From: an uncultured Bacteroidales bacterium | GTDB lineage: Bacteria; Bacteroidota; Bacteroidia; Bacteroidales; Muribaculaceae | Direction: 5' to 3' | Assembly (NCBI GenBank): GCA_947175575.1 | Contig: CAMWNG010000001.1 | Coordinates: 1 to 64,000, forward strand | DNA: 64,000 nucleotides | Shown: positions 34,674 to 39,111 of the stretch, piece after piece | Numbering within the stretch: position 1 is the first letter of the stretch | Layout: each line of letters opens with the position of its first letter | Position numbers and translations under genes: made by a program | The notes under the pieces: model-generated | Databases searched by the model: none | What the model saw: only the letters and a program-made list of their open reading frames with translations | Told to the model about the DNA's origin: nothing

Positions 34674-36575
34674 TCATTTCATCTCCAAATCGAGTCTGTT
34701 ACGTTCATAGAAGTCAATGAACGCTTCGTTGACAAGTCTGTTGCCGCCCGGTGTTGGATAATTTCCGGAGAAATACCAGTCGCCGGGATGCCCCGGAATA
34801 GCCTTGTGCATGTCCTCGAGAGTCTGATACAAGATATCGACTTTAGCCTTTATGGGATGGGATGCATCCTTGATCAGAAGGGTTACGATTCCGGCTGTAA
34901 TCTCATCGTCTGTAAAAGGTGCATATATGGCTTTTACGCAGTTTGTCCTTTCGTTATAGGGTCGCTTACGCTGAGCGAGACATGCTTCGTAGGTTTCTCG
35001 GACAATGTGACCGCGGCCGCTTGTCATTAACAGCATTATTGCAGCATGAAATGCGATAAACTGGTCGAGGGCTGACATGTCGATGCCATAATAATCGGGG
35101 TAACGTACCTGCGGAGACGAACTTACGATGATTATACGCCGGGGATTGAGACGGTCGAGCTGCCGCAGGATAGACTGCCGCAAGGTCGTGCCGCGCACAA
35201 TGGAGTCGTCTATTGCCACCAAGGTGTCCACACCCGGTTCTACTGTGCCGTATGTCACATCGTAAACATGAGCTACCATATCATCTCGTGAAGATCCTTC
35301 GGCTATGAATGTACGCATCTTTACATCTTTGATCGCTATCTTCTCAACGCGTATCCGTTCGCTCAAAATATTCTTCAGTGTATGCTCGGTTGCGTTTCCT
35401 TCCGATACAGCTTTCTGAATTTTCTGATATTTTATGCCGTCAAGATGTCTCTCAAGACCTTGTATCATTCCGAAGAAAGCAACTTCAGCCGTATTCGGAA
35501 TGAAAGAAAACACGGTATGGCGCACATCGTTGTCTACCATTCCGAGCAGACGTGGAACAAGCATTTCACCGAGACGTTTTCGTTCGGCATAAATGTCTAT
35601 GTCCGAACCGCGGGAAAAATATATACGTTCAAACGAGCAACGGCGGTTGTCTTCCTGAGGTAAAATTTCTTCGACCTTTACGTCTCCGGCCTTGTTGACA
35701 AGCAATGCGTTGCCCGGGGTGAGTTCTTTCACCGAGTCGCATGGTACGTCGAATACAGTCTGAATAACGGGCCGTTCTGATGCCAGTACGACGATTTCAT
35801 CGTCATAATAATAGAATGCGGGACGGATGCCGTGAGAGTCGCGGACCGCGAACATGTCACCGGAACCGGTGGCGCCGCACATCACAAATCCGCCGTCCCA
35901 TTGAGGAGCGACGTTGCGCAATACGCGTCCCATGTCCATCCGGTCCTCGATTGCGATGGCCAGATCCGGGTCGTGCATTGTGTCGCGGAGAGAGCGGTAG
36001 AGATGATGGTTCTCTTTATCGAGAGCATAACCGACCTGCTCAAGAATCATGTTGGTATCGCTGTATATGCGTGGATGCTGGCCCTGAGCCACTACGCCCT
36101 CGAACATTTCGCGCACATTGGTCATGTTGAAGTTTCCGCAGAGCATCAGCGATCGTGAGGCCCAGTTGTTGCGGCGCAGTACGGGATGTGCATAGTTCAA
36201 GCCACTTTTCCCGGTTGTAGAATACCGTAGATGTCCCATGTATATCTGTCCGATATATGGCGTGAACGCATCGACTTCATCTACCGGAAGCTGGTTTACG
36301 TTTTCAGGAATTTCATGGCCTATCTTTGAGAAAATCTGGGGAATGGCGTCTTTCCCCAACGCACGTTCGCGGAAAATCAGTTCATAACCTGCAGGCCCGT
36401 GAAGTTTCACGACACCGACCCCGGCAGCTTCCTGACCGCGGTTGTGCTGTTTCTCCATGAGGAGATACAATTTATCGAGTGCATAGGTGTACGAACCGTA
36501 TTTTTGTTTGTAATATTCAAGAGGGCGGCGCAGTCGTATGAGTGCCACACCGCACTCGTGTTTGAGAGGATCCAT
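34674..36575 (-). CDS. Amidophosphoribosyltransferase (PurF-like, Bacteroidales long form)
   Basis: MDPLKHECGVALIRLRRPLEYYKQ with propeptide-like start before Cys; MGHLRYSTTGKSG; VDTLVAIDDSIVRGTTLRQSILRQL PRPP motif. Confidence 0.88.
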   Translation of the reverse strand: MDPLKHECGVALIRLRRPLEYYKQKYGSYTYALDKLYLLMEKQHNRGQEAAGVGVVKLHGPAGYELIFRERALGKDAIPQIFSKIGHEIPENVNQLPVDEVDAFTPYIGQIYMGHLRYSTTGKSGLNYAHPVLRRNNWASRSLMLCGNFNMTNVREMFEGVVAQGQHPRIYSDTNMILEQVGYALDKENHHLYRSLRDTMHDPDLAIAIEDRMDMGRVLRNVAPQWDGGFVMCGATGSGDMFAVRDSHGIRPAFYYYDDEIVVLASERPVIQTVFDVPCDSVKELTPGNALLVNKAGDVKVEEILPQEDNRRCSFERIYFSRGSDIDIYAERKRLGEMLVPRLLGMVDNDVRHTVFSFIPNTAEVAFFGMIQGLERHLDGIKYQKIQKAVSEGNATEHTLKNILSERIRVEKIAIKDVKMRTFIAEGSSRDDMVAHVYDVTYGTVEPGVDTLVAIDDSIVRGTTLRQSILRQLDRLNPRRIIIVSSSPQVRYPDYYGIDMSALDQFIAFHAAIMLLMTSGRGHIVRETYEACLAQRKRPYNERTNCVKAIYAPFTDDEITAGIVTLLIKDASHPIKAKVDILYQTLEDMHKAIPGHPGDWYFSGNYPTPGGNRLVNEAFIDFYERNRLDLEMK

Positions 36576-36637: not shown

Positions 36638-38827
36638 TTAGCGTATGAACAGTAATTCGCGATATTTCGGAAGCGGCCACATACGGTTGTCGACCATTAG
36701 CTCGAGTTTATCGATGTGGTAGCGAATCTCTTCCATAGGAGGAACTACGTTATCGTGATATGCGATTGCTTTTTCACGTTCGCTGGTGATGCGATTGGCT
36801 TCTTTACGTGCTTCGATCATACGGTCTGTTTCGGCTTTGATAGCCTCCATATGTTCCGACATCCTTTCGATGGTGTCAAGATCGTGAGCCACTACTTTTT
36901 CACCTTTTTCACCGGGGAAAAGAGCTTTGAGTTTCACGACATTGTCGACCAGCATTGACTGATAACGTGTGGCAACCGGAACAATATGGTTGATAGCAAG
37001 ATCGCCGAGCACCCGGGCCTCAATCTGCACTTTCTTGGTGTACATTTCCCATTTCACTTCGTTACGTGCTGCGAGTTCCACGGGCGAGAACACTCCGGTG
37101 CGTCCGAACATTTTCACTGATTCCGGAGCGAGGTAGGCATCAAAGATTCTGGGAGCCGATGTTTCGCAGTCAAGACCGCGACGCTCGGCTTCTTCTTTCC
37201 ATTCATCCGAATAGCCGTTTCCGTCAAAATGAATGGCTTTCGATTCTTTTACAAGTTTGCGTAGCTCGGCGAGTATGGAATCCTGTGTGGACATTCCTTC
37301 TGCGATATGTTCCAATACATTTTTGTGGAAACTGTCGAGTTGATCAGCCACAGCTGCATTCAGTGCGATGAGCGCGCCCGCACAGTTGGCAGACGAACCG
37401 ACAGCTCGGAATTCGAATCTGTTTCCGGTGAACGCGAACGGCGACGTGCGGTTACGGTCTGTGTTGTCGAGCATCAGTTCGGGAATCTGCACGAGACCTA
37501 TGGATTTTTCGGCTTTGGACGCAAGTACGGCCAGCTCTTCGGGGGTCATGTTCTCGATCTGTTCGAGCACATGACTGAGCTGTTTCCCCAGGAATATGGA
37601 GATGATGGCAGGAGGAGCTTCGTTAGCACCGAGTCGATGAGCATTGGTCGCTGACATGATTGATGCTTTCAGTAAGGCATTATGGCGATGTACGGCTGCC
37701 ATTACGTTAACAGTGAATGTCAGGAAACGCAGGTTTTCCTGCGGTGTCTTACCGGGTGAAAAGAGCATGTCGCCTTTGTCAGTGCCGAGACTCCAGTTAT
37801 TGTGCTTGCCCGAACCGTTGATACCCGAGAAAGGTTTTTCGTGTAACAGTACATGGAAATTGTGTCTTCGCGCAACCTCAGCCATAAGGGTCATTATGAG
37901 CAGATTGTGGTCGTTGGCAAGATTGGTTTCCTCGAAAATCGGCGCGAGTTCAAACTGGTTGGGGGCTACTTCGTTGTGGCGCGTCTTGACGGGAATGCCA
38001 AGTTTGTGAGCTTCATGTTCAAGATCAAGCATAAAAGCTTCGACACGTGATGGTATCGCTCCGAAGTAGTGATCTTCGAGTTGCTGGTTTTTTGCGCTTT
38101 CGTGTCCCATAAGTGTGCGGCCTGTAAGCACCAGATCGGGACGGGCAGCATACAGGGCCTCGTCTACCAGAAAATATTCCTGTTCCCATCCGAGATAGTT
38201 TTTCACGTGCTTGACCTCTGGATCGAAGAGTTTGGCTACGGCTGTTGCCGCATGATCGATTGCGTTCAGAGAGCGGAGCAATGGTGTTTTGTAGTCCAGA
38301 CTCTCGCCTGTGTATGATATAAATATGGTAGGGATACAAAGAGTTCCGTCAAGAATAAATGCGGGGGAAGATATATCCCACGCGGAATAACCGCGTGCCT
38401 CGAATGTGTTGCGTATGCCACCGTTGGGAAATGAGGAAGCGTCGGGTTCCTGCTGTACAAGGAGTTTACCCGAAAATTCTTCCACGACTCCGCCTTTGCC
38501 GTCCGGCATAACAAACGCATCATGTTTTTCGGCAGTACCGTCGGTAAGCGGATGGAACCAGTGTGTGTAATGGCGCGCGCCATTATCCACGGCCCATCGT
38601 TTCATGCCTTCGGCCACGCTGTCGGCGAGCGAACGTGAGATAGGCTTTTTATCTTCAATTGCGGTGATCAGGGCTTCGTAAGTGTCTTTGGGAAGATATT
38701 CGTACATTTTCTTACGGTTGAACACAGCCCGTCCGAAATAAGCGTCCGGTCGTTCTGCGGGGAGTTCCACTGGAACGGCTTTGCGGTTGAACGCTTCTTC
38801 TACAACTTTAAAACGCAAAGATGACAT
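36638..38827 (-). CDS. glnN: Type III glutamine synthetase
   Basis: 729 aa; VKNYLGWEQEYFLVDEALYAARPDLVLTGRTLMG, HEKPFSGINGSGKHNNWSLGTD, NRTSPFAFTGNRFEFRAVGSSAN. Confidence 0.95.
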   Translation of the reverse strand: MSSLRFKVVEEAFNRKAVPVELPAERPDAYFGRAVFNRKKMYEYLPKDTYEALITAIEDKKPISRSLADSVAEGMKRWAVDNGARHYTHWFHPLTDGTAEKHDAFVMPDGKGGVVEEFSGKLLVQQEPDASSFPNGGIRNTFEARGYSAWDISSPAFILDGTLCIPTIFISYTGESLDYKTPLLRSLNAIDHAATAVAKLFDPEVKHVKNYLGWEQEYFLVDEALYAARPDLVLTGRTLMGHESAKNQQLEDHYFGAIPSRVEAFMLDLEHEAHKLGIPVKTRHNEVAPNQFELAPIFEETNLANDHNLLIMTLMAEVARRHNFHVLLHEKPFSGINGSGKHNNWSLGTDKGDMLFSPGKTPQENLRFLTFTVNVMAAVHRHNALLKASIMSATNAHRLGANEAPPAIISIFLGKQLSHVLEQIENMTPEELAVLASKAEKSIGLVQIPELMLDNTDRNRTSPFAFTGNRFEFRAVGSSANCAGALIALNAAVADQLDSFHKNVLEHIAEGMSTQDSILAELRKLVKESKAIHFDGNGYSDEWKEEAERRGLDCETSAPRIFDAYLAPESVKMFGRTGVFSPVELAARNEVKWEMYTKKVQIEARVLGDLAINHIVPVATRYQSMLVDNVVKLKALFPGEKGEKVVAHDLDTIERMSEHMEAIKAETDRMIEARKEANRITSEREKAIAYHDNVVPPMEEIRYHIDKLELMVDNRMWPLPKYRELLFIR

Positions 38828-39073
38828 CTTTTTTACTATTTTGTATGAGTATTGGATTTAAACTAAAAAGCCGCGCTGCATCCCTGTGCTTTTTCGTGTG
38901 CTCCGACTGAATGTCGGTTAGCATGAAATTTGGGGGATGTCAGAACGGGTATCATGATTCTGAAGCCTTATAAAACAAATGACCCTGCGGCATGGACATG
39001 TCGTCGGTCATGACTGACCGACATTACATCGCATCGCAGGGAAGTATGATTAAAACTCTCCATTTGTGAAAAT
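38828..39073 (-). promoter_or_regulatory. Long structured 5' leader of glnN with competing stems (candidate cis-regulatory RNA)
   Basis: Putative promoter at 39080-39111 gives about 245 nt of leader containing an extended hairpin (38983-39041) and alternative pairing of 39017-39025 with 38910-38918. Confidence 0.5.
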
Positions 39074-39079
39074 GATGTG

Positions 39080-39111
39080 CAAAGGTACAAGTTTTTTTTG
39101 AACCCGCCAAG
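39080..39111 (-). promoter_or_regulatory. Putative glnN promoter (-33 CTTG, 20 bp, -7 TACCTTTG)
   Basis: Minus strand CTTGGCGGGTTCAAAAAAAACTTG-TACCTTTG. Confidence 0.6.

Follow-up and report, generated by a model that had tools for sequence, protein, structure and literature searches.

How is the glutamine synthetase gene glnN of an uncultured Muribaculaceae bacterium controlled, and does the RNA that precedes it act as a riboswitch, as an attenuator or as neither? The original prediction had proposed a riboswitch or an attenuator, in which an RNA segment (A) pairs either with a neighboring segment (B), inside a hairpin closed by an outer stem, or with a later segment (C) that can also fold on itself. 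To address this question, we analyzed a 64,000-nucleotide stretch of DNA (hereafter "the window"; features in Table 1) from a 2.36 Mb draft genome in 107 contigs, together with its named relatives, which are Muribaculaceae MAGs. We looked for glnN in 49 genomes of the same genus (40 with a match), 198 of the family and 119 of the order, as well as in public contigs; removal of duplicates left 188 upstream regions for comparison, including 36 from the genus.

The glnN-purF locus and its promoter

The promoter lies where the original prediction placed it, and its two elements agree with those of the Bacteroidota consensus (TAnnTTTG and, at -33, a TTTG-like sequence; PMC7366714). Most glnN leaders of the genus likewise carry a promoter box at a comparable distance. 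The gene upstream of glnN encodes an OPT transporter and ends in a terminator-like hairpin followed by a T run, which isolates the glnN promoter.

On the other side, glnN adjoins a gene that is probably purF, as judged from its sequence. Its likely ATG (36575) stands 62 nt past the glnN stop codon, the order glnN then purF was found in 22 of 24 testable loci of the genus, and the two genes likely share one operon. The spacer between them holds a hairpin without a U tract, which could set the relative expression of glnN and purF.

Table 1. Positions of the features of the glnN locus in the window
Feature	Position	Strand	Description or evidence
Hairpin closing the OPT transporter gene	39170-39149	(-)	AAGTCCGGTT-caa-ACCGGACTT, then T run; terminator-like
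Promoter	39080..39111	(-)	CTTG 39111-39108, 20 bp, TACCTTTG 39087-39080
Leader ORF	38968..39063	(-)	31 codons, MESFNHTSLRCDVMSVSHDRRHVHAAGSFVL, then stop; start position relative to box conserved; frame open through terminator
Terminator-like hairpin (outer stem and A:B)	38983..39041	(-)	-31.5 kcal/mol; outer stem CCCUGCG/CGCAGGG; terminator scan, covariation, covariance model
Segment A	39025-39015	(-)	
Segment B	39010-39003	(-)	
U-rich tail of the terminator-like hairpin	38970..38982	(-)	UCAUUUGUUUUAU; sequence; U tracts at the equivalent place in 6/7 aligned relatives
Second hairpin, past the ORF	38899..38923	(-)	UGCU aa CCGAC/GUCGG AGCA; contains segment C
Segment C	38918-38910	(-)	
Hairpin formed by segment C	38917-38903	(-)	
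glnN	36638..38827	(-)	type III glutamine synthetase, 729 aa; Pfam GSIII_N 5e-76, Gln-synt_C-ter, Gln-synt_C
Hairpin in the glnN-purF spacer	36624-36603	(-)	CCCCGGCUG-cuuu-CAGUCGGGG; no U tract
purF-like gene	34674..36575	(-)	probable amidophosphoribosyltransferase; glutamine amidotransferase domain

A terminator-like hairpin and its possible pairing partners

The glnN leader folds far more stably than its shuffled counterparts (-69.8 vs. -50.1 ± 4.5 kcal/mol, z -4.4, 0/200 shuffles). Segments A and B and the outer stem are all found at the predicted positions, and the hairpin that they form is supported by covariation across eight glnN leaders of the genus, aligned by sequence alone. From this alignment, RNAalifold recovered unaided the inner A:B stem together with the outer stem that closes it, and the covariation score of the hairpin was 0.343, compared to 0.180 ± 0.035 after shuffling (0/500 shuffles). 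Pair counting on the named structure gave two-sided changes in 6 of 13 pairs (11 cells, with 79.8% of cells paired), and all slid registers of this structure scored far worse. The four closest sequences taken alone are weaker evidence, their double-change count being reached by 33 of 500 shuffles.

Directly after this hairpin comes a U-rich tract that the original prediction had overlooked, and which occurs in seven of the eight aligned leaders (the exception, L032, has the hairpin and lacks the tract). A stable and covarying hairpin followed by such a tract looks, as judged from sequence, like an intrinsic terminator. Across the genus, a terminator scan detected a hairpin with a U tract in 21 of 36 leaders vs. 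5–8 of 36 dinucleotide-shuffled ones; in the wider family the excess was smaller (38 of 152 leaders vs. 15 expected from shuffling), and the scan used still misses some terminators visible by eye (L134, L136-L138, L099). The tract of the source species is weaker than those of its relatives, and its hairpin is omitted by a simple terminator scan of the window with a loop limit of 8. A covariance model built on this part of the leader retrieved, in the genus, the eight glnN leaders, the reverse strand of the source locus and one weak match (29 bits) before an unrelated gene, which we took as chance; since these eight leaders were the training set of the model, this result shows absence elsewhere rather than an independent confirmation.

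Segment C and its own hairpin were also located correctly in the original prediction, and the alternative A:C pairing can be drawn. However, this pairing is 22 kcal/mol costlier (constrained fold -48.9 vs. -71.2 kcal/mol), has a probability of about 3e-14 and bears no sign of selection. The downstream complement of A beats 197 of 200 shuffles in the source species, which would speak for a switch, whereas in six relatives the complement of the inner arm is not clearly unusual (matched by 17 to 149 of 200 shuffles), i.e., A:C is not conserved. In addition, the polymerase reaches C only some 50 nt past the U tract of the hairpin, hence after the terminator, so that C cannot act as a co-transcriptional antiterminator; it is better seen as part of the second hairpin, past the ORF. 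No aptamer-like conserved core was found in 32 leaders, in which enriched words were mainly those of the terminator and the start codon, and this argues against a riboswitch. Rfam returned nothing credible for the leader at gathering or permissive thresholds, the best weak match in the region being SR1 on the other strand (27.7 vs. a threshold of 45). The glutamine riboswitches of Rfam (glnA RNA and Downstream-peptide motif) are likewise leader RNAs near glutamine-related genes, but the glnN leader differs from them in the lack of both a match and a conserved core. Given the energy, the order of transcription and the lack of conservation, we consider a riboswitch or protein-controlled RNA switch toggling between A:B and A:C to be highly improbable, even though both pairings can be drawn. 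What stands of the original proposal is thus its attenuator half, carried by the conserved and covarying terminator-like hairpin, while the switch between A:B and A:C falls.

Counterparts of the second hairpin, at a similar place but of unrelated sequence, were observed in leaders L032 (z -4.5), L035 (z -5.3; these two being the strongest) and L121.

A reading frame kept open over the hairpin

Also overlooked by the original prediction was a short leader ORF that starts 16 nt past the promoter box, extends over the hairpin and has its stop codon where the U tract ends. Most leaders of the genus have an ATG about 15–33 nt past the TAnnTTTG box, and fixed windows counted from this leader ATG held 13 in-frame stops (most of them the natural ends of short ORFs) vs. 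44 and 48 for the two remaining frames. Of the 20 genus leaders in which a terminator had been detected, 18 (all but L080 and L147) had no stop in this frame before the hairpin ended, compared to 7.3 expected from shuffles and to 8 and 6 leaders for the other two frames; the count of 18 was reached in 0 of 200,000 simulations. For most leaders we took as start the first ATG downstream of the box, a choice blind to frame openness; in L124, L144, L145 and L146, the last three being in the set of 20, the start was picked by eye, which could favor open frames slightly. Internal gaps within the ORF were 3 nt long in a four-species leader alignment. The sequence of the leader peptide is poorly conserved across the genus, and the five leader peptides searched against NCBIfam matched no family. 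Poorly conserved peptides in a conserved frame suggest that what persists across leaders is a frame open over the terminator rather than the peptide.

Within the window, a short ORF containing a terminator follows only one of 40 promoter boxes, that of glnN, and another 800 kb of the source genome yielded 523 boxes and eight candidates, none with a -33 match; the layout was therefore found once in 864 kb. Searching relatives with the DNA of the whole leader retrieved mostly the promoter region, and no orthologous leader was found by plain sequence. Several members of the genus have no such leader (L129, L068, L140, L142, L148, L038). Outside the genus, the open-frame signal of a family-wide search was weak (27, 38, and 36 stops by frame). 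Other Muribaculaceae genera nonetheless include glnN leaders whose ORF passes through a terminator, convincingly L046 and L084 and by eye L042 and L060, and the layout may extend beyond the genus.

Between ORF start and terminator, C is the commonest base of the genus leaders (30%) and G the rarest (22%), unlike the start of glnN, a composition that might matter for Rho or pausing. One or two more small hairpins, possibly pause hairpins, occur in this stretch in L134-L138, L143, L080, and L126.

A promoter and a terminator form a unit, and could thus belong to a separate small gene or 5′-derived sRNA with its own terminator, from which constitutive and unregulated read-through would reach glnN; such sRNAs have been reported in B. 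thetaiotaomicron (PMC7366714). We regard this as unlikely, if with some small chance of being right, because the peptide is poorly conserved, the RNA is conserved in structure only, and species with a terminator near glnN showed no second promoter box in the interval separating the two. In genus members other than the source species, only some 30–80 nt separate the end of the terminator from the start of glnN; a further promoter would hardly fit in, and expression of glnN there needs read-through. Hairpin and ORF might instead act on translation, through coupling or reinitiation at glnN, as the leader stop codon lies 3–33 nt from the glnN ATG in many species. Yet this distance is 130–140 nt in the group of the source species, and the U tracts point to termination, which makes an effect on translation decidedly improbable.

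A ribosome-dependent attenuator as the favored model

In E. coli, it is established that a terminator is suppressed when a ribosome reaches or covers it, and the pyrBI terminator lies within the pyrBI leader gene (PMC4824070; PMC5021804); in amino-acid attenuators, by contrast, the terminator is found downstream of the leader gene, at a distance of more than 20 bp (PMC4824070). The glnN leader resembles pyrBI (pyrL) in its upstream promoter, its biosynthetic operon, and its short leader ORF that contains and passes a putative intrinsic terminator, the terminator being within the leader ORF at the source locus as in the 18 genus leaders above. Unlike pyrBI, it has no U-rich pause region: none was found in the genus leaders, which pooled have 23.7% U before the terminator, with C as the commonest base. 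Attenuators of the pyrBI type are further defined by a read-through that depends on leader translation and on the NTP level. We thus liken the glnN leader to pyrBI in outline and do not file it as a member of this type; as genes and phylum are different, a sequence relationship is not expected.

Attenuators of the trp/his/ilv type also combine a leader peptide and a terminator before a biosynthetic gene, and the short leader ORF, the terminator and the amino-acid-related gene of the glnN locus would suit a classical amino-acid attenuator, in which a ribosome stalling at the codons of the sensed amino acid favors an antiterminator. But this type has its terminator past the leader gene and repeated control codons, and the glnN leader has neither, its ORF passing through the terminator instead of ending before it. 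With 17 Gln codons out of 1320 (29.6 expected), the leader ORFs show no enrichment, which argues against a classical Gln attenuator. The strongest codon excesses are those of K and F, perhaps owing to the A-rich start and to the U tract, followed by a milder excess of R, and no conserved antiterminator was noticed in an unsystematic inspection. Overall, we find an amino-acid attenuator improbable here. An apparent avoidance of Gln codons (1.3% vs. 4.1% in other frames, p-value 6.5e-7) shrinks to z -2.3 under a position-specific null, and is for this reason not claimed. Tandem ANTAR-target hairpins, finally, likewise associate hairpins and a terminator in nitrogen-related leaders, but no pair of the known type of six-base loops was apparent by eye in the glnN leader.

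The reading that we favor, and deem reasonably probable, is that the glnN leader is a transcription attenuator of glnN-purF with the layout of E. coli pyrBI, in which a coupled ribosome suppresses the terminator. The regulator would then likely be the ribosome on the leader ORF. The promoter match, the conserved hairpin with its U tract, the conserved ORF over this hairpin and the linkage of the two genes all support this model. From these we infer that the ORF is translated, that the hairpin terminates transcription, and that control has the following direction. RNA polymerase would start just after position 39080 and soon make the start codon of the leader ORF, inside which the terminator hairpin and its U tract would sit. 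A closely trailing ribosome would occupy and melt the hairpin, and transcription would continue into glnN-purF; if translation lagged behind the polymerase, the hairpin would form and transcription would stop. Because glutamine feeds nucleotide synthesis and purF follows glnN, nucleotide supply is one plausible guess for the signal that might be sensed.

Among open-access papers, we found no description of glnN regulation in Bacteroidota, and no leader-ORF attenuator of this layout for Bacteroidota or for glnN. The locus illustrates that a leader with a poorly conserved sequence can be recognized by a conserved open frame and a covarying terminator. It is tempting, if still rather doubtful, to see here a translation-coupled attenuator of the Bacteroidota through which the pace of the polymerase relative to the ribosome would govern both glutamine synthetase and the first enzyme of purine synthesis. 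Its sequence would evolve fast while hairpin and open frame are kept, and nitrogen would thereby be controlled with neither a dedicated regulator protein nor an aptamer. If the attenuator model is true, the ribosome on the leader would decide whether the glutamine-making gene is expressed in this Muribaculaceae gut bacterium.
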